Assembly: GCF_026745355.1 (NCBI RefSeq)
Contig: NC_079204.1
Location: forward strand, 55,620,633-55,684,632
Direction: 5' to 3'
From: Beta vulgaris subsp. vulgaris
Lineage: Eukaryota; Streptophyta; Magnoliopsida; Caryophyllales; Amaranthaceae
Length of the DNA: 64,000 bases
The notes under the pieces: model-generated
Database searches by the model: none
Seen by the model: only the letters and a program-made list of their open reading frames with translations
What the model was told of the DNA's origin: nothing
Made by a program: the position numbers and the translations under genes
In this document: piece after piece, positions 14,957 through 60,328 of the stretch
How positions within the stretch are numbered: position 1 is the stretch's first letter
How the letters are laid out: each line of letters begins with the position of its first letter

Positions 14957-15352
14957 AATGTGTGAATATTTATGTTAAGAGAAAAGTTGCTTGGGGTAAA
15001 TGGTCCTAGGCCTAATGTGGTTTTCAATATATAAAGGTGTTGCATTATTTAAAAAAAGCAAGTATTGCAATAATTTTGGAGCACAGGAAGTAGTTTTTGA
15101 GCAGGTCCAATAAAAACGAGTTGGTTGAGTTAAAGCTAATATTCCTATTGTTGAACTATCTTGCTTTTGCTCTTAATTAATTTTATCCTTGTAAAAATAT
15201 ATTAAATGTTCCCTCGTGCGGAAGACCTCCTAAAATCCTTTTACTTAACTTATAAAAAAAATAAGTTGGTTGAGTTAGAGCTAAAAACAACGCCGGCCCG
15301 AAGAATATGGAGTCCTATGCTAATACTGAAAAATAGGCCCCTATATAAAAAA

Positions 15353-16406
15353 GAGAACGTATTGTGTCGGACTCGTTCGACCATAATCTTGGTCGGACGA
15401 CTTTCAGGTGGTTCCAATTTTTTTTCAGGTAGTCTTCATTTTTTTTCAGGTGGTTCAATTTTTTTTCAGGTAGTCTTCATTTTGTTTTCAGTTAGTCTTC
15501 TTTGTTTTTCAGTGGGTTTTTGTGCTTCAGTTAGACTTACTTGGGTTTCAGTTGGTTTTTATTCTTTTTCAGGTAGTCTACATTTTTCTTCAGGTAGTCT
15601 TCATTTTGTTTCAGTTAGTCCATTATTTCTTTCAGTTGGCCCATTATTTCTTTCAGTTGGTCCAACTGAAAGAAAAGAAAGTCTAACTGAAAGAAAAGAA
15701 AGTCTAACTGAAAGAAAAGAAAGTCCAACTGAAAGAAAAGAAAGTCCAACTGAAAGAAAACAAAGTCTAACTGAAAGAAAAGAAAGTCCAACTGAAAGAA
15801 AACAAAGTCTAACTGAAAGAAAACAAAGTCTAACTGAAAGAAAAGAAAGTCTAACCCACAAAAGCAAGACAAACCTATGGAGCAAAACCAACGCACTAAT
15901 GAAGCAGAAAATACACATACAAAGACTCACCTCCGTGAAAAAGGATGCTGCACCATCTAAAACCACCCTACATATATACCCCAAAATCATAACCAACCCA
16001 CTACAGTTTCTCCACCAATTCCTAAACAATGCATCAAGTTCTCGCGCCGAGAGCTCACAATCTTCACGAACTCCTCTCTCCTCCTCTTGACCTCTCAGAC
16101 TAAGAAGAGGTGTGTTGGTTTACGCACCACCATGGCAGAAAAGAGCTGAACACTGTACCGGCGGCGAGTCTCCGGCGTCGGTGAGGGTGGGTTTTTTGCT
16201 GCGTTTTTTGAGTCTCATTTTATTGGGTTGTTATGGAGGAGAGAGAACGTGGGAAAGTTAGGGGTTTTGGGGAAGTGAAAAGTGTTGGGAAAATGGTGAT
16301 GATTGATCAACAAAACAAATATGAAAAAAAAGCCCGCGCGTTTTTGATGGGCTAAGCCCGTCCGACGGAAGGTATTGGGTCAGACGGTCTGACCCAATAC
16401 TTTCAC
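15353..16406. mobile_element. Mutator-like element 1 with internal inverted tandem arrays
   Basis: The left end GAGAACGTATTGTGTCGGAC pairs with the right end GTGAAAGTATTGGGTCAGAC (reverse complement). The 9-bp target duplication TATAAAAAA lies at 15344-15352 and 16407-16415. Copy C of the segment has the uninterrupted site at about 59178, so the insertion is directly demonstrated. The left half holds TTTTTTTCAGGTAGTC-type repeats, the right half AACTGAAAGAAAAGAAAGTC repeats; they meet in a palindrome at about 15653. The 294-residue open frame (15206-16090) is a product of the repeat. No transposase is present. Confidence 0.85.
15661..15860. repeat. 21-bp tandem array AACTGAAAGAAAAGAAAGTCY
   Basis: About nine copies of a 21-bp unit. 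Because 21 is a multiple of three it stays open on both strands and yields repeat peptides (ERKESLT on plus, FLSVRL on minus). These are not taken as genes. Confidence 0.85.
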
Positions 16407-16630
16407 TATAAAAAAATTCAAAGAATCCACTAAAATATACAAGTAAACCAAATAAGAAATATGCATCAAACTAAAATTTTCTCCTCAAAATATTTTGATA
16501 CATTCCAAGAAAAACTAAATTCAATTAACTTGCCAACATTCTGACCATTAGCTTCAAGTCTTTTTTATATTTAAAGATTTTTTTGTCAATTTGAGGTCCT
16601 ATGAAAGTGAGACGGCCATGAGAATCTAAT

Positions 16631-16776
16631 TTATTTTTTTTATTAGGAAATTAAGTGGCATGCATAGCATGTTAAGGAAATACCCCAATATAATGTTGGG
16701 AGTAAGAATCGAACTCCTGGCTTCAAGGGTCAAAAGGGAGCGCGCTACCCACTTAAACTAACTCCCATCTTTAATC
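16631..16776 (-). mobile_element. tRNA-derived SINE, family 1 copy b
   Basis: Same family as the copy at 3367, more decayed (B box seen as GAATCGAACTCC on plus). The target duplication ATGAGAATCTAAT lies at 16618-16630 and 16777-16789. Copy C of the segment has the SINE at the same site (59506), while the segment upstream of ankyrin gene 2 lacks it. Confidence 0.8.
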
Positions 16777-17438
16777 ATGAGAATCTAATGGTTCAAAATG
16801 ATTTTATTTGGCAAAAGGACAACTGATTATGATTGAAGGCATTTGAACAGCTATGTTGCGGGATATCAAATTTCTCGTTTTTTTTTTTTTGCTAAGTATG
16901 AATACTCCTACCTTGTGGAGTACATTACTACTGTTAAGTTAAGACTTTTTCATATCGATTACAAAAGATTTTTTTCCCCAAGGACAGGTGACATAGGTAT
17001 TAAAAAAAGCTGGGTACTAACTACTAAGAATGATAAAATTATGTACAAAAAAACCTAATATGTTGACTTCATAAACCAAGACATAATACATTAATACCTG
17101 CTGTACAAATCTGAGAAATTGTTAATTAAAGTGGAAAGATCAATGAGTTGTCCCAGAAGAAAGTCCACATCATGTGCCTTTTATAAATGTTTGTGTACAT
17201 GATCTATATTCTATCACGCCTTCCATTTTGAAAAAAAAGATGGATGAGATTCGAATCCGTAACCTTTCTGTCACGCTGACTCTGATACTATGTCAAAAGA
17301 CCAATTCAACCAAAAACTTAAACTGATAGTTGAGGCTCCAGGAATACTCTATCACTTATTGCATCCCCGTGCCGAAATTTTAAATGTGTATTTGTCGTGG
17401 ATTATCTACCTGTCAGATAATAGTATGATAGCGAACAT

Positions 17439-17445
17439 TATAAAA
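17439..17445 (+). promoter_or_regulatory. TATA box of ankyrin gene 1
   Basis: TATAAAA sits 91 bases before the start codon in a block (GCGAACATTATAAAAGC) conserved upstream of gene 2 (44738-44744) and in the promoter-only third copy (60314-60320). Confidence 0.65.
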
Positions 17446-17535
17446 GCCAACGACAACTAGAAAAAAGTTGTACATTACAAAGGCCAAATAACCTTAAAAA
17501 CTTGTCTCTCTCGTTGCCAAAAGTAAAGAAAAATC

Positions 17536-32061: not shown

Positions 32062-32325
32062 TATTATTTGCGGGTACGATTTTCTGCCCCATCCCCCAAC
32101 CAAATCTGGACTTAATGGGCGGGTCTCCAACTTAACAAGCTCGACTGACATTCCTACGACTCTACGAGTGGGGAAGAGGGGAATTTCCGAATTTAGGAAT
32201 CTCATTTTACAACAAGGGCGAAAATCGAGTTCTTGTATCAATTTCCACATGAGCACCAATCGTACGATTATAAATTGTTCACAATCCGTCGTCAGAGAAG
32301 CAGAAAGAAGACAAGATAATCCAAG

Positions 32326-35300
32326 ATGATGCGCAAATCACTAACAAATCTCCTAAAAAATGATGAAAGTTAATCTAGAAAATTCTAGATAGGTCATGTA
32401 ATGTAAAGAAAAATCTTATATGCATGTCTTAGATTTGTCTAGAAAAATCTTGTAAAATATCTATGTAAAAAAATCTAAGTTTAGAATATTTGAGTGTGTG
32501 TTAGAAATATCAAGGTCAAGAAAAATCTAGAAACTAAGGTACAACAACTATAAATATGTTGTATGTGTATGAGTTACAAAATGAGCTCAAAATGAGAGGG
32601 AGCAAGATGAGCTCAAATGAGAGAGAGTCAAACAAAATGAGGTCCCACACAAAATATTAGGAAAGGTAGAAACAAAGGGTTCTACCAAGGTGAATGAGAG
32701 ACATGAGCTCTCACAAATACACTTGTACAATTAATTATCAATGAAAATTCAATTTTATGATACTATTGAGGTCCATCAAAACTTCCGTGTGCGCCACAAA
32801 TTCTATCATGGTATCAGAGCCGGAACGTGATAACGCCAACATCCGAGTAGCAAGAAGAAGATAGAAGATACAAATTATCAAGTTGAAGGTTGAAGCAAGA
32901 TAAAAGAAGTTGAGGTAAGTGTCAAATTTAAGATATGTGGAAGAATTTAAATTAAAGGTGAAGATAAAAAAAAAATTTGAAGATGCATTAAGAATAAAAG
33001 TTGAGGAGAAATAAAAATGAAAAGATATGTGAAGGAAAGATTAAAAAGAATGAGAAATAGTTTAGTTAGTGACATGAGCACTACAATAAAAAAAATGATG
33101 GGGTATGTTGATGACATGAACATCAACAAATGAAATTAGCATTGGAGAAAAGGAAAGAATGAAAAGAATGGGAGGATATTGGTGACAAGAGCACCAATAG
33201 TTGAAAAAAAAAACAAAATGAAAAGAAAAAGAAGAAAAAGAAGTTCAAGAGAAAGATTTTGGAATTCGCTAATGACATGGGCATTAGCAGAGATGATTGG
33301 TGACATGAGCATCAATAAAAGAATGATATTGGATAAAGATCTGTGAAGAAGAAAAATGAAAAAGTTCAGATTAGGGGAGTGAGTTGGTAACATGGTACCA
33401 ACACAAAACAATAAAGACGAATAAAAATGTGATGAAGCTAAGAAATAAAGATAGGATGGTTGGTAACAAGAGTACCAACACAAAGACAAAAAGAAAAATC
33501 AAGATCGGAGATCGTTGATGACAAGGGCATCAACGGAAGAATAATTTGAAGTACAAGAATTTTCAAGATTAAGGGGGAGTGATGAAAGTTAATCTAGAAA
33601 ATTCTAGATAGGTCATGTAATGTAAAGAAAAATCTTATATGCATGTCTTAGATTTGTCTAGAAAAATCTTGTAAAATATCTATGTAAAAAAATCTAAGTT
33701 TAGAATATTTGAGTGTGTGTTAGAAATATCAAGGTCAAGAAAAATCTAGAAACTAAGGTACAACAACTATAAATATGTTGTATGTGTATGAGTTACAAAA
33801 TGAGCTCAAAATGAGAGGGAGCAAGATGAGCTCAAATGAGAGAGAGTCAAACAAAATGAGGTCCACACAAAATATTAGGAAAGGTAGAAACAAAGGGTTC
33901 TACCAAGGTGAATGAGAGACATGAGCTCTCACAAATACACTTGTACAATTAATTATCAATGAAAATTCAATTTTATGATACTATTGAGGTCCATCAAAAC
34001 TTCCGTGTGCGCCACAAATTCTATCAAAAAAAAACCCTGAAAATCCAAAACCCAAAACTAAAATCATCATTAATACCCACAAAAAGCTTCAGCAATACAA
34101 GTTCATCATCAATTTACAACTGGGATTTGAGTTCTGCTGCAACAGAGAAGGTGGATTGTGTAGTGATTGGAGCTGGAATTGTGGGAATTGCAATTGCTAG
34201 AGATTTGGCTTTCAAAGGTAGAGAAGTTTTAGTCCTTGAATCTGCTCCTACTTTTGGAACTGTAACTAGTTCTCGCAACAGTGAAGTTATTCATGCTGGG
34301 ATTTATTATCCTCCCAAATCTCTCAAGGTCTTTCCTTTTCTCTTTCTTTTGACTTGGGTTGATGTTATATGCTACTTTTAGACTTGGGTTTTTGTTGGTT
34401 CAGTGTTTTGATATGTTTTATGAAGTCTATGTTGATGAATTTTTGTGTTATTTACTGACAATTGCTGTTTTTTTGACCTAATGTGAATTGGTTCTTTTGT
34501 TGTGTGCTATTAAAAAATTCAATCTTCTGTGATGTTGGTCTGTTCTACATTGGTTGCATATTGTTGTTACTAGATGCCAGTTGGGTTCTATTGGATTTTA
34601 TACCATGAGATTGATGGGCCTGTTGATTTCATAGAATGAAGTAGCAATAGAGAGTAGAGGAAGTTTAAGTTCCTTTCCTGAGAAGTATGAAAGTGGCTAA
34701 TCTGAAGGAGGATGGTTGTGGGCTTGTGGCACAACCTCGGAATGATACCTTCAATGGCTATGGTAATTCATGTTTCTAGTGATATTTATGATTCACTCGA
34801 TAGAATGCACCACTGAGTTGTGCTTATGGTTTTATTTACTGTGGATGGGTGGTTATTGTCGGAGGATGGTGGTGGTATGGAGAGTGGTTTGTGCTCCAAG
34901 ATGTGCTTTTATATAGTGGATTAGGATTGGAAGACGTGTATGTTTGTCCGTCTATGGGATATTAAATTTGATTAGTTTAGTATTAGTTGATCAACTATAA
35001 TCTAACATGTCATAAACCATGTCTTCCCATCACAATCCTTGTCGTTGAAGATATATATAGTATTGGTTCAAAATTTGGGTTTATGGGTATATTGCAGATT
35101 TGCAGTGGCTAGATTTAAAGTTGAATGGAGGGATTGTGACTGATACTTGCATATTTGTGAGAATCAAGGCTCTACATATAGTAGATTCTTATGTTTATTG
35201 CTTTGGTAAAAACTGTATATGGATGAACATTCATTTATTGGAACATTGGAAATCCACAATCTTAGTTGTTTGATCTGGATCTTCAAAAGAATTCCAATGT

Positions 35301-37182
35301 AAAATTTGCAGGCTAGGTTTTGTGTCAAAGGAAGAGAGATGATGTACAAGTACTGTTCAGAGCGTGATGTCCCTCACAAGAAGATAGGTAAGCTTATTGT
35401 TGCTACTCGGGAATCAGAGGTTCCAAAATTAAATGAGCTGTTGGTTCGTGGAACTGAAAACGGAGTTGATGGTCTGAGATTGATGGAGGCATCTGAGGCT
35501 ATGAGGATGGAACCAGAACTGCAATGTGTCAAAGCCCTGTTTTCACCTCTTTCAGGAATTGTTGATACCCATTCTCTGATGTACTCTTTACTGGTAGGTG
35601 TTTGAATGTTCTTATAGTGGGATATCACAAGCTCGTTAATTTTCTATCTACTTTGTGTCTTCGAAGTAATGATTGTAATATGACAGGACATTTCTGGGAA
35701 ATTGAGTTCAGGGAGAAGCTGAAACTTATGGGGCAATATTTTCCTACAACACCACTGTCCTTGGGGGCAACATAAAAGGAAACCAAATTGAGCTTTTTGT
35801 GACAGGAAGCCAGAGTTTAAAAAACTTTGATGAGGGAATTACACTACCAGCTGAAGTTAAGCTTCTTCCTGAGGTTGTAATTAATTCAGCTGGCTTGGCC
35901 GCTGTACCCCTTGCTAAGAGACTGATGGACCTTGATAATTCTGTCATTCCCATTGCCCATTATGCTTGTGGTCATTACTTTTCTCTATCAAAGACTAAGG
36001 TGCCGCCTTTTAGACATCTAATATATCCAATACCAGAAGATGGTGGGCTTGGGGTGCACGTAACACTAGATTTAGATGGCCAGATCAAATTTGGGCCTGA
36101 TGTCGAATGGATTGGTGATGTGACTGATGTTGCGAGTTTTTTGAATAGGTATATTTTCTTTTGCCCCTAAAACGAGCTGCTCCTGTTTTCATGTTTCTGT
36201 TATTTTAATTATGAGCTATCTTATTTTCGATTAAGCAACAAAAAATTTGGAATCTTTGTATTCTGTTCATGTTTATGATTTAGGTCATGTCTTGGCTTCA
36301 GCACTTTTTCCTGTCGATTCTCATCTATTCATCTACACCAATGATAGCGTCTGATTTGCTCGGTCCATAGCATATATTGCAAATCTTTCACACATTTACG
36401 CATTCTTGAGAGTTTCTGAAACGTATACCTCACTGACAAATGGATTGGAATTTCTTTCATTCATTCATCTAGATAAACAATTAGTGACTGAACTATGAGA
36501 GATTCTGATCTGTACTTGATAACTAATCAAATCGCTAATAATTGTTGTTCTTAGATGCTGAACAAATTTAACCTAAGGCGAAAAAAAACAAAAACATAGC
36601 AATAAAATCCTACTAAGTACTAAGTTTGGCATAGCCAAGGTCTGAAGATATCTAATATCGTCGTTCTGTCCGTCCAGATTAGATGTCTGTTTATATACAT
36701 GTAGACCTCCCTAAACCCTCCTTGTGTCGACTCGTTTTGAACTTCGAATTTTGATTAGTTGAAAAGGAGATAAATATGATGATAGAATCCAACAACAATG
36801 ATGGTTTCTCTTGTCCAGGTTTGATTACTCTGTATGTCCTGGTCGTGGTGAATTTTTTTATCCAGAGATAAGGAAGTACTATCCTCTGCTGAAGGAAGGA
36901 TCTTTAGAGCCAGGTTATGCAGGGATACGCCCAAAACTCTCTGGTTCTGGAAAGATGCCTTCTGATTTTGTAATTCAGGTCAGTCCAGATTTGTTATAGT
37001 ACATGCAGGATATAACTTCTAAGATTTTCCAGAATACCTCATGATAGCATCTGTATGAACAGGGGCAAGATGTTCATGGAGTACCTGGACTTGTGAACCT
37101 TTTCGGCATTGAATCACCTGGTGTGACTGCAAGTATGGCCATTGCGGATTATGTATCTTCTAGGGTCCTCCATACGATGTAG
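32326..37182 (+). CDS. L2HGDH: L-2-hydroxyglutarate dehydrogenase, mitochondrial (first exon split by an LTR element)
   Basis: FAD enzyme that oxidises L-2-hydroxyglutarate to 2-oxoglutarate in mitochondria. Exon 1 holds the FAD-binding [16 protein letters not shown] (near 34160) and the family motif [19 protein letters not shown]. Exons: 1 up to 34327, 2 35312-35593, 3 35712-36148, 4 36819-36978, 5 37063-37182; the end matches the family ([15 protein letters not shown]). All introns are GT-AG and the frame is open. Exon 1 is broken: the original start and 35 bases (32326-32360, [12 protein letters not shown]) are separated from the rest (34027 on) by a 1666-bp retrotransposon. From the original ATG the frame stops at 32371. 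An ATG in the 3' LTR at 33959 opens a 455-aa frame into the enzyme with a different leader. Arabidopsis L2HGDH is about 480 aa. Confidence 0.85.
32361..32808 (+). repeat. 5' LTR
   Basis: TG...CA type LTR. A TATAAATA box at 32549-32556 could set the transcription start at about 32580. Confidence 0.9.
32809..32820 (+). other. Primer-binding site (initiator tRNA-Met)
   Basis: TGGTATCAGAGC begins at the first base after the 5' LTR, the standard Copia primer site. Confidence 0.9.
33067..33535 (+). repeat. Array of eight stem-loops with constant loop and co-varying stems
   Basis: Stem-loops lie at 33067-33083, 33107-33127, 33177-33199, 33268-33288, 33296-33316, 33383-33402, 33459-33479 and 33513-33535. 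Loops read ACATGAG, ACATGAA, ACAAGAG, ACATGGG, ACATGAG, ACATGG, ACAAGAG, ACAAGGG. Stems are different but paired: GTTGATG/CATCAAC, TATTGGTG/CACCAATA, GCTAATG/CATTAGC, GTTGGTA/TACCAAC, CGTTGATG/CATCAACG. The fifth has one G-U pair; the first keeps five pairs. The spacers are A/G-rich and not conserved. Confidence 0.85.
33571..33579 (+). other. Polypurine tract
   Basis: AAGGGGGAG ends exactly where the 3' LTR begins, the plus-strand primer of reverse transcription. Confidence 0.85.
33580..34026 (+). repeat. 3' LTR
   Basis: Identical by eye to the 5' LTR except for one missing base. Its TATAAATA (33768-33775) points into L2HGDH. The ATG at 33959 is in frame with the enzyme, though several other ATGs precede it after the likely transcription start. 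Confidence 0.9.
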
Positions 37183-42504: not shown

Positions 42505-43085
42505 TTTTAGAAGACTAAATGAAAGAAAAACAACACAAGCTGAAAAAATTTACACACCAACTGAAATAACACAGTAGACCAAATGAAAGAAAAACAACAC
42601 AAGCTAAAAGATTTAACACACTAACTGAAAGTCAACAGAAGACCAAATGAAAGAAAAATAACACAAGCTGAAAGATTTAGCACACTAACTGAAAGTCAAC
42701 AGAAGACCAAATGAAAGAAAAACAACACAAGCTGAAAGATTTAACATACTAACTGAAAGTCAACATAAGACCAAATGAAAGAAAAACAACACAAGCTGAA
42801 AGATTTAACACACTAACCGAAAGTCAACATAAGACCAAATGAAAGAAAAACAACACAAGCTGAAAGATTTAACACACTAACTGAAAGTCAACAGAAGACC
42901 AAATGATAGAAAAACAACACAAGCTGAAAGATTTAACACACTAACTGAAAGTCAACAGAAGACCAAATGAAAGAAAAAAAACACAAGCTGAAAGAATTTA
43001 CACAGCAACTGAAAGAATTCAGAAGACCAAATGAAAGAAAAACAACACAAAATGAAAGAATTTACACACCAACTGAAAGTCAAGT
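42505..43085. repeat. 61-bp tandem array
   Basis: About nine units of AGACCAAATGAAAGAAAAAC followed by AACACAAGCTGAAAGATTTA and CACTAACTGAAAGTCAACA. The ACTGAAAG word is shared with the 21-bp array of element 1. Confidence 0.85.
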
Positions 43086-57799: not shown

Positions 57800-58787
57800 G
57801 GGATTTGTGAATTTTGATTTCATTTCCAGAAAAAAGGTGTTATCTTTCATATTTTGGTGCCGAATAACGAGTGTCCTGAGCGATGGGGAAGGAAGTTGGA
57901 GATGAGAGACAAACTGTTGAAGTACACAACTACGATCTTCATAGAGAGATTGCCGTACAACTGCTAGTAGATCCTGTCTACTAGGCACGAAATCCCAAGG
58001 TCTTGGATGATCCTCCTGGGATTCTTCTGATTCAATTAACAAAGAAGTCACTTTCAATAGTGACTTTTTACCCTGCTGCGAGGGTATGCGAGGTTCAGTC
58101 ACACTAGACGGAAACTCGAAAGAGGTGGAGGTCTTGACGTGCCCCAAATCAAGTTAGGGGGCCTCCCACAAGATACGTTTTTTAGGTGTGATGACACATG
58201 AAGTCATCACTAGAATTTGGGGCGAGTTAGAATGATAAACTACGCCCCACTGACGGATCCTAAGATCCAAAATGAGAATCCCAAATCTAGAAGACCGACA
58301 AATAACAGAGTGGAAACAACCGAACATGAAAATAATGAAAATAAAAACAACCACCCGACACATAGAACTACGCCTGCAAACAACACCGGTAAGAACCTGC
58401 ACCAAACGCGTCCTTGGCACACTAAATATACTGATGACAACTAACACTAGTGGGGGACGGGGAAGGGGCACTCGACGACACCTAAAAAAAACGACTCGAC
58501 AAAGCAGAGGCCTAATCGATGAGGGTGGAACAAAAACGCCGGCCCAAAACTAACCGGAAACCAGAAGTCGCCGCGAAAAGTCGACGATGAAGAAAACGAA
58601 TAGTAGGAAAATCGACGGAGAAGATAAAAAAAACGAAAAAAAGAATACAAGTGAACTCGCCGGAGACCCGTCGGAAACCTGCGCGGCGCCGGATCTCCGG
58701 CGAGCTCTAGGGTTAGGGTGTTTGGGTGTGAGTTTGTGTAGAGAGAAGGTAGAGAAAAGGTTTATAGAGAGAGAGTCTTTTTTTTCC
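57800..58787 (-). mobile_element. Possible LINE 5' part (ORF1 region), minus strand
   Basis: On the minus strand the segment begins with a CT-rich leader, then CTCCGGCGAG-type GC-rich DNA, then long open frames (58154-58471, 57722-58147) in different frames with a Ser/Arg-rich product. This resembles the 5' UTR and ORF1 start of plant L1 LINEs, but no domain was recognised and no reverse transcriptase is present. Confidence 0.3.
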
Positions 58788-59505
58788 TTATGTGTGAATA
58801 TTTATGTTAAGAGAAAAGTTGCTTGGGGTAAGTGGTCCTAGGCCTAATGTGGTTTTCAATATATAAAGGTGTTGCATTATTTAAAAAAGCAAGTATTGCA
58901 ATAATTTTGGAGCGCAGGAAGTAGTTTTTGAGCAGGTCCAATAAAAATGAGTTGGTTGAGTTAAAGCTAATATTCCTATTGTTGAACTATCTTGCTTTTG
59001 CTCTTAATTAATTTTATCCTTGTAAACAATATATTAAATGTTCCCCTCGTGCGGAAGACCTCCTTAAATCCTTTTACTTAACCTATAAAAAAAAATAAGT
59101 TGGTTGAGTTAGAGCTAAAAACAACGCCGGCCCGAAGAATATGGAGTCCTATGCTGATAGTGAAAAATAGGCCCCTATATAAAAAAATTCAAAGAATCCA
59201 CTAAAGTATGCAAGTAAACCAAATAACAAATATGCATCAAACTAAAATTTTCTCATCAAAATATTTTGGTACATTACAAGGAAAACTGAATTCAATTAAC
59301 TTGCCAACATATTGACCATTAGCTTCAAGTCTTTTATATTTAAAGATTTTTTTGTCAATTTGAGGTCTCTGTGAAAGTGAGATCATGTTCCATGTCCTAC
59401 TTTGGACATGTTAAAAGCCGGGCCTGGCTAAAAATTTATGTAATTTATCAATTTTGGATGTTTTTATCATAATAATAATAAGAAAGATGACCATGAGAAT
59501 CTAAT

Positions 59506-59656
59506 TTTTTTTTTATTAGGAAATTAAGATCCATGCATAACATGCTCAGGAAATACCCCATCATAATGCTGGGGAGAAGGATCGAACCCCTAACCTCAAA
59601 CCTCAAGGACCAAGAGGGAGCGCTCTACCCACTTGAGCTAACTCTTATCCTTAATC
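59506..59656 (-). mobile_element. tRNA-derived SINE, family 1 copy d
   Basis: Orthologous to copy b by position. Target duplication ATGAGAATCTAAT (59493-59505) and ATGGGAATCTAAT (59657-59669). B box visible on plus as GGATCGAACCCC. Confidence 0.85.
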
Positions 59657-60313
59657 ATGGGAATCTAATGGATCAAAATGATTTTATTTGGCAAAAGGAC
59701 ACTGATTATGATTGAAGGCATTTGGACAGCTATGTTGCGGGATATCACAAATTTCTCGTTTTTTCTGCTAAGTATCAATACTCCTACCTCGTGGAGTACA
59801 TTACTACTGTTAAGTTAGACTTTTTCATATCGATTACGAAAGATTTTTTTCCCCAAGGACAGGTGACATAGGTATTAAAAAAAGCTGGGTACTAACTACT
59901 AAGAATGATAAAATTATGTAAAAAAAAAACCTAATATGTTGACTTCATAAACCAAGACATAATACATTAATACCTGCTGTACAAATCTGAGAAATTGTTA
60001 ATTAAAGTGAAAAGATCAATGAGTTGTCCCAGAAGAAAGTCCACATCATGTGCCTTTTATAAATGTTTGTGTACATGATCTATATTCTATCACGCCTTCC
60101 ATTAAGAAAAAGGGATGGATGAAATTCGAATTCATGACCTTTTTGTCACGCTGGCTCTGATATCATGTCAAAAGACCAACTCAACCAAAAACTTAAACTG
60201 ATAGTTGATGCTCCAGAAATACTCTATCACTCATCGCATCCCCGTGCCGAAATTTTAAATGTGTATTTATCGTGGATTATCTATCCGTTGGATAATAGTA
60301 TGATAGCGAACAT

Positions 60314-60320
60314 TATAAAA
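60314..60320 (+). promoter_or_regulatory. Orphan TATA box of the third ankyrin copy
   Basis: TATAAAA in the conserved CATTATAAAAGCAGACGA block. The Copia LTR starts eight bases after it, so the promoter core is cut off from any ankyrin exon. Confidence 0.6.
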
Positions 60321-60328
60321 GCAGACGA

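Follow-up and report, generated by a model that had tools for sequence, protein, structure and literature searches.

A gene-less LTR retrotransposon of 1.67 kb, occupying positions 32361-34026 of the window (the whole stretch of 64,000 nucleotides from Beta vulgaris subsp. vulgaris analysed here), carries an array of short hairpins, and our analysis supports the view that this array is a selected structure, which works as sense-strand RNA. The array recurs behind the gag of Copia-type elements, and it probably serves as a multivalent Gag-recognition (packaging) array common to gag-only and gene-less elements, a reading in which the binding itself is inferred from this shared distribution. The window element consists of two LTRs with an internal domain of 771 bp between them, and its parts are the following:

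32361..32808, + strand: 5' LTR, TGATG...TATCA, 448 bp, identical to the 3' LTR but for one indel
32549..32556, + strand: TATA box TATAAATA, in an LTR segment that is 0.97 identical over 20 chosen LTRs
32665..32686, + strand: LTR hairpin 1, GGTAGAA-ACAAAGGG-TTCTACC, 0.97 identity over 20 chosen LTRs
32695..32713, + strand: LTR hairpin 2, TGAGAG-ACATGAG-CTCTCA
32809..32820, + strand: primer binding site (PBS) TGGTATCAGAGC, read from the sequence
33067..33083, + strand: h1, TAGTG-ACATGAG-CACTA (GTTAGTG/CACTAAC in many other copies)
33106..33128, + strand: h2, loop ACATGAA
33177..33199, + strand: h3, loop ACAAGAG
33268..33288, + strand: h4, loop ACATGGG (stem of 10 bp in many other copies)
33296..33316, + strand: h5, loop ACATGAG, one G·U pair
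33383..33402, + strand: h6, 6-nt loop ACATGG (ACATGGG in many other copies)
33459..33479, + strand: h7, loop ACAAGAG, based also on genome matches to the pattern GTTGGTAACAWGRGTACCAAC
33512..33536, + strand: h8, loop ACAAGGG
33546..33566, + strand: weaker tail hairpin, TTGAAG-TACAAGAAT-TTTCAA, an uncertain member of the array
33571..33579, + strand: polypurine tract (PPT) AAGGGGGAG, read from the sequence
33580..34026, + strand: 3' LTR, in which both LTR hairpins recur at 33883-33904 and 33913-33931

No long sense frame is present in the internal domain, in which the longest stop-to-stop frame has 68 aa in the sense and 120 aa in the antisense direction. The 20 compared LTRs were chosen by hand, one per element, and it is the U5 region around LTR hairpin 1, not the hairpin alone, that is conserved throughout. 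At the LTR start (32375-32388) lies a palindrome CTAGAAAATTCTAG, which to our eye resembles a heat-shock element, in a segment 0.96 identical over the 20 chosen LTRs. The PBS is presumably of the initiator-Met tRNA type. Target duplications of 5 bp were found at 6 of 8 solo LTRs elsewhere in the genome, the window copy's own duplication being uninformative as it sits in an A-run. Directly behind the element, at 34141-36170, follows a gene that we take to encode an FAD-dependent oxidoreductase of the L-2-hydroxyglutarate dehydrogenase type, and an open frame continues into it from the 3' LTR.

Classical TRIMs have short LTRs and an almost absent internal domain, and with 1.67 kb, LTRs of 448 bp and 771 internal bp the window element is larger than these. 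By its two LTRs, PBS, PPT and 5-bp duplications (at solo LTRs), as well as by reading frames that leave it no apparent coding capacity, it otherwise has the features of TRIMs and other small non-autonomous LTR elements, for which the accessible sections of the literature describe the same set of LTRs, PBS, PPT, target duplication, non-coding interior, solo LTRs and tandem arrays (PMC4717578, PMC7215508); these sections mention no hairpin array, whereas the window element has a selected one. Both gene-less (TRIM) and gag-only elements (TR-GAG; PMC8704663) are, judging from the accessible text, known kinds, and a published beet TRIM set (PMC11603912, accessible in part) may list the family of the window element. 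The element itself is no TR-GAG, as it has no gag. Retrozymes, in the accessible part of their description, likewise are gene-less plant LTR elements of similar size with a functional RNA structure (PMC4918200), and were ruled out by the lack of any Rfam hammerhead match in 32300-34100 (E up to 5) and of a CTGAYGA core in the element. Cassandra was ruled out by the lack of a 5S match in the same search, whose six matches all lay far below gathering scores.

Ten distinct hairpins are present in the window copy, eight of them internal (33067-33536) and two in the LTR. The preliminary description had reported eight internal hairpins with loop ACAWGRR and stems of 5-8 pairs: all eight are real, but the loop of h6 has six bases (ACATGG), so that seven of the eight have a 7-nt loop, and the stems of these seven comprise 5-9 pairs, G·U included. 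The four stems that it quoted were found exactly as given, while both LTR hairpins, which lie downstream of the TATA box at 32549, had been missed. The loop of the tail hairpin, TACAAGAAT, occurs 17 times over 27 internal domains. The array spacers measure 7-68 nt with a purine content of 79%, hairpins account for 31 of the 46 C residues in 33067-33536, and the purine peak of the window in 500-base samples starts at about 32950 (fraction 0.73, against a mean of 0.51). As read from the sequences, the internal 5' arms fit RYTRRTR, differing by transitions only, as would be expected if the helices evolve through G·U. The predicted RNA fold of the internal domain beats all 20 shuffles (z = -3.37), with a high predicted pairing probability for most hairpins and a lower one for h1 and h5.

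Such an array is hardly a product of base composition. When the array was shuffled 2,000 times with its dinucleotides preserved, hairpins with a 7-nt loop arose 0.007 times on average and never more than once, against the 7 observed, which removes the possibility, raised in the preliminary description, that shuffled sequence might yield as many; both strands of the remaining window held 1 such hairpin with a stem of at least 5 pairs, where 300 Markov sequences averaged 0.11. When the eight hairpins of the window with a 7-nt loop (seven internal, one LTR) were aligned, h6 and LTR hairpin 1 being omitted for their loop length, both-sided change was seen at 7 of 7 pairs and 94.6% of the cells paired. 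Four of five measures, among them the covariation score, exceeded every one of 500 shuffles; the number of pair types was ordinary in this alignment, being equalled in 245 of the 500. A further hairpin, GTGATGAC-ACATGAA-GTCATCAC, is located at 58188-58210, about 330 bases downstream of TTTTGGTGCCG, a sequence of another element that resembles an LTR end with PBS; none of 300 random sequences had a stem this long on that loop.

The gene-less element has many copies in the genome. In the assembly from which the window derives (569 Mb, 20 contigs, nine of which gave matches), at least 55 matches to the internal domain (40 of 138 candidates scored) and at least 41 to the LTR (40 of 262 candidates scored) were obtained. 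Allowing up to 2 mismatches, the pattern of LTR hairpin 1 occurred at 149 sites and the h7 pattern GTTGGTAACAWGRGTACCAAC at 253, with 0 sites for either reversed pattern as control. The distant member L073, with two identical LTRs and an internal domain 66% like that of the window, keeps eight internal hairpins with ACA loops as well as both LTR hairpins, and at seven further loci of gene-less subfamilies at least 6 pairs were formed at 45 of 53 sites. LTR hairpins, too, change on both arms while the loop ACATGAG stays constant, as in TGTGAG/CTCACA and GGTGAG/CTCACC of L080, and in GTGAGAA-ACATGAG-TTCTCAC of L082. One copy, L028, has ten internal hairpins, compared to a maximum of eight in the other copies counted, and decayed hairpins are present in some copies. 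Units of about 1.3 kb that bear the hairpins form a tandem array of about 44 kb at C2:34674172-34717892 (which includes L084), reminiscent of the tandem arrays of Cassandra. Among 100 of the 149 LTR-hairpin sites, inspected by eye, no LTR pairs 4-8 kb apart, which would be a sign of an autonomous element, were seen outside this tandem cluster; one pair 2.7 kb apart (L074) turned out to be a gene-less copy in which extra sequence has been inserted close to where the 5' LTR ends. Neither by pattern nor by similarity did any match come from viral contigs, phages, plasmids or prokaryote genomes, as one would predict for an element of plants.

Selection on the stems is best seen where the 3' arm was left free. 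Sites were chosen in 41 internal domains by a regular expression covering no more than the 5' arm and a loosely defined loop, and at least 6 of 7 pairs were formed at 255 of 267 such sites, or at 102 of the 114 distinct ones. Over the 114 distinct sites the five stem positions that could be tested covary (Fisher p 1.7e-9 to 1.2e-15, values that are optimistic because the sequences are related), a 5' G at these positions standing mostly opposite C and a 5' A mostly opposite T. The loop reads ACA[AT]G[AG][AG] in 205 or more of the 255 paired sites, a steadiness which is no evidence at loop position 1, fixed by the expression, nor at positions 2, 5 and 6, restricted by it. Outside the element, the same expression found at least 6 pairs at 4 of 25 sites, two of them in ATT repeats and two in apparent duplicated ankyrin-type exons; the internal domains, when scanned on their reverse strand, gave only 3 sites, 2 of which had at least 6 pairs.

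The changes between copies indicate on which strand this structure works. In orthologous hairpins of 26 aligned copies only 41 of 1,412 stem cells were unpaired (L005, a neighbour of L004, and L010, with an insertion, were omitted; L016 and L017 overlap L004 and L005). One-sided stem changes, counted as distinct states, led to G·U in 25, to A·C in 8 and to other mismatches in 15 cases. Since a sense G·U is an antisense A·C, mutation alone should yield both about equally. Per site, C>T reached 0.50 and G>A 0.21 in the stems, A>G 0.36 and T>C 0.08, whereas the spacers gave 0.67 (only 9 C sites), 0.77, 0.41 and 0.24, respectively; A>G thus exceeds T>C in spacers as well as in stems. Pooled over base types, the bias in the spacers of these copies is slight and opposite in direction (68/161 vs 58/103 sites), and the stem-spacer difference in pooled log odds amounts to z = 3.99; the distinct-state ratio alone, 25:8 in stems vs 68:58 in spacers, gives a weaker contrast (Fisher p = 0.029). 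Transversions are fewer in stems than in spacers as well (for example, A>T 0.06 vs 0.28). Eight distinct double changes were found in the aligned copies, four of them in slot h3, in which L013 and L023 align another hairpin; without L013, L023 and L028 three double changes are left, and the one-sided transition states number 22 vs 6. Because of the sense-strand G·U bias, sense RNA is favoured over double-stranded DNA or the antisense strand, and the preliminary claim that compensatory stem changes mark a selected RNA structure is borne out by this bias together with the covariation over 41 internal domains.

Template switching at quasi-palindromes can copy the changes of one arm onto the other, and a mutational homogenisation of this kind would match the arms without any selection; two hairpins do share their flanks via duplication. 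We consider this explanation most improbable, given that it predicts neither a strand-specific G·U excess, in contrast to the 25 vs 8 one-sided changes, nor a steady loop, in contrast to the motif common to 205 or more of the 255 paired sites. Only marginally less improbable, in our view, is that the loops act as a dimerisation or kissing-loop signal or pair with U3. The CATG of many loops is self-complementary, and U3 contains the 6-base complements TCATGT and TCTTGT of the loops ACATGA and ACAAGA (33613-33618 and 33667-33672 in the 3' LTR, and also in the 5' LTR), the latter being kept in L073. However, 31 of the 102 distinct paired loops have A at loop position 4 and are without CATG, TCATGT is changed to TGATGT in L073, and no full 7-nt loop complement exists anywhere in the element. 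RNA dimerisation, put forward in the preliminary description, thus finds little support in the form of loop contact, two of the five commonest loops also lacking the CATG palindrome.

By way of isolated matches to the h7 pattern we arrived at loci that contain a Copia-type gag. PF14223 was detected in L076, L078 and L081 (E 2.8e-19 to 1.7e-26), and in all eight gag-matching loci examined the array or its remains lie shortly behind gag. The same regular expression, applied to nine array loci, found at least 6 of 7 pairs at 22 of 23 sites, 19 of the sites being in the eight gag-matching loci and four in L079, which shows the array and a PPT-like stretch with no gag match, and on its other strand a Copia pol fragment (Pol_BBD). 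The clearest order is that of L081, in which 5' LTR, PBS, gag, four hairpins, PPT and 3' LTR follow each other within 1.9 kb; its LTRs are 96.4% identical and about 1.2 kb apart, a distance too small for pol, and it shares with L085 and the window element the same 12 PBS bases after the LTR. In L078, the last gag piece contains two CCHC-like motifs, CNICKKTNHNTANC and CWECKRFGHVGKNC, which we take to be the zinc knuckles of a Gag nucleocapsid, followed by FGEENQEEILF and the stop, and the first hairpin starts within about 10 bases of this stop. No Pfam family matched the zinc-knuckle piece of L081, in which the knuckles were recognised by eye, and the gag frames of both L078 and L081 are interrupted. 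Two further gag copies (L090 and L091, 75-76% identity) still have hairpins between gag stop and PPT, while three opened in search of pol, whose gag DNA match ends at the stop (L087-L089), show decayed arrays and then other sequence. No pol was found next to gag in the gag-bearing relatives examined, which were reached via array and gag matches. At least 40 genome places match the gag (40 of 73 candidates scored), and in six of the 40, L078 and L081 included, a listed array hairpin follows 106-169 nt downstream on the same strand; as the hairpin places listed are 100 of 253, the remaining gag matches are not counter-evidence. Gag copies also occur in tandem, about 1.64-1.68 kb apart, at C1:17712929-17716948 and C6:13812514-13814882.

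By blast of the window element against pieces of five array loci, the array was found in L076, L078, L079 and L081, the fifth being L085; beyond it only short, weak LTR matches appeared (L078 and L081), with no match for leader or tail in any of the five pieces. In the LTRs of the gag-bearing elements nothing clearly corresponds to the LTR hairpins; the candidates there are weak and have the loops ACAAAGAC (L081) and ACAACAC (L078, L085). As judged from these comparisons, the array is the main stretch common to gag-bearing and gene-less elements, and because the gag-coding elements carry it behind gag, the earlier idea that it could bind a partner element's Gag is supported indirectly. Sharing alone is no proof that Gag reads the array, because a gag element could have given rise to the gene-less one through a deletion. 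The order of slots behind gag (CTAATG-type, TTGGTG-type 28 nt later, CTGGTG, GTTGGTA) resembles h4, h5 and h6, as it would if the gene-less family were a gag element minus gag and the array a passive leftover; this we regard as improbable, since changes that keep pairing outnumber those that break it, L028 exceeds with its ten hairpins all other copies counted, and the LTR has similar loops too. The main rival is a platform for host RNA-binding proteins instead of Gag, acting in nuclear export, stability or localisation of the retrotransposon RNA. Gag-bearing and gene-less elements both would need export, and the location right behind the gag stop of L078 resembles that of a 3' UTR element; the presence of the array in elements coding for a zinc-knuckle Gag and in gene-less ones which share little else with them speaks against it, and we hold a host platform to be unlikely, though less so than a relic.

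Under the preferred reading of a Gag-recognition array, the two CCHC zinc knuckles of the Gag nucleocapsid would read the unpaired ACAWGRG loops presented on the hairpins, and several such loops on purine-rich, little-structured spacers would raise avidity, so that Gag could assemble on RNAs which contain the array. The gene-less element, displaying the same loops, would be carried along as a passenger, up to ten internal and two LTR hairpins possibly making it an efficient one, and would depend on a further element for reverse transcriptase and integrase. More tentatively, and with somewhat less than even confidence, we envisage a loop code of three tiers: a source of pol, gag-only elements whose Gag would read the ACAWGRG loops that follow their own gene, and gene-less elements which, showing more loops (array plus LTR), would compete for Gag by valency.

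Retroviral psi hairpins offer a precedent, in which a CCHC nucleocapsid reads unpaired purines in loops near gag; these are few and usually ahead of or inside gag, whereas the beet hairpins are many and behind it. Like packaging signals in general, the array consists of repeated stem-loops with a conserved loop motif; as regards the recognition by a cognate Gag or capsid that such signals also have, what is seen is its co-occurrence with gag. A similar set of short stem-loops, variable in the stem and united by a purine motif (RGAG) in the loop, is read by the capsid protein in the reverse-transcribing genome of hepatitis B virus, according to the accessible sections of PMC8677749; there the sites are dispersed in a coding genome, while the beet array is dense and its capsid binding putative, and the comparison is meant to concern a possible way of working, not kinship. 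Degenerate stem-loops with a short, much looser loop motif (AxxA) were also proposed as packaging signals in the plant virus STNV-1 and, in the part of the source at hand, judged doubtful in plants (PMC6475782), so that loop motifs alone can mislead. L081, with LTRs and gag only, resembles TR-GAG, though its frame is interrupted, and the sections of PMC8704663 available to us do not mention a hairpin array behind gag.

How gene-less retrotransposons enter the particles of other elements is an open question; for 278 of 289 TRIM subfamilies there is no related element coding for the retrotransposase, as stated in the accessible portion of PMC4717578. A defined loop motif that recurs within the element and is found in a Gag-coding family as well would be a testable molecular link, hardly visible from whole-element similarity, and the motif could be used to find other partner pairs. 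In the open-licence literature, available in part, we found no description of a covarying hairpin array with a steady loop in TRIM or TR-GAG, nor of one common to a gag-coding and a gene-less family; if the reading is true, so dense a packaging array would be new in LTR retrotransposons. Elsewhere in the window, a duplicated block was observed at 14958-17447 and 58790-60322 (91-97% alike, with an insertion of about 1 kb in one copy), and a tandem repeat with a unit of about 64 bp at 42509-43083.
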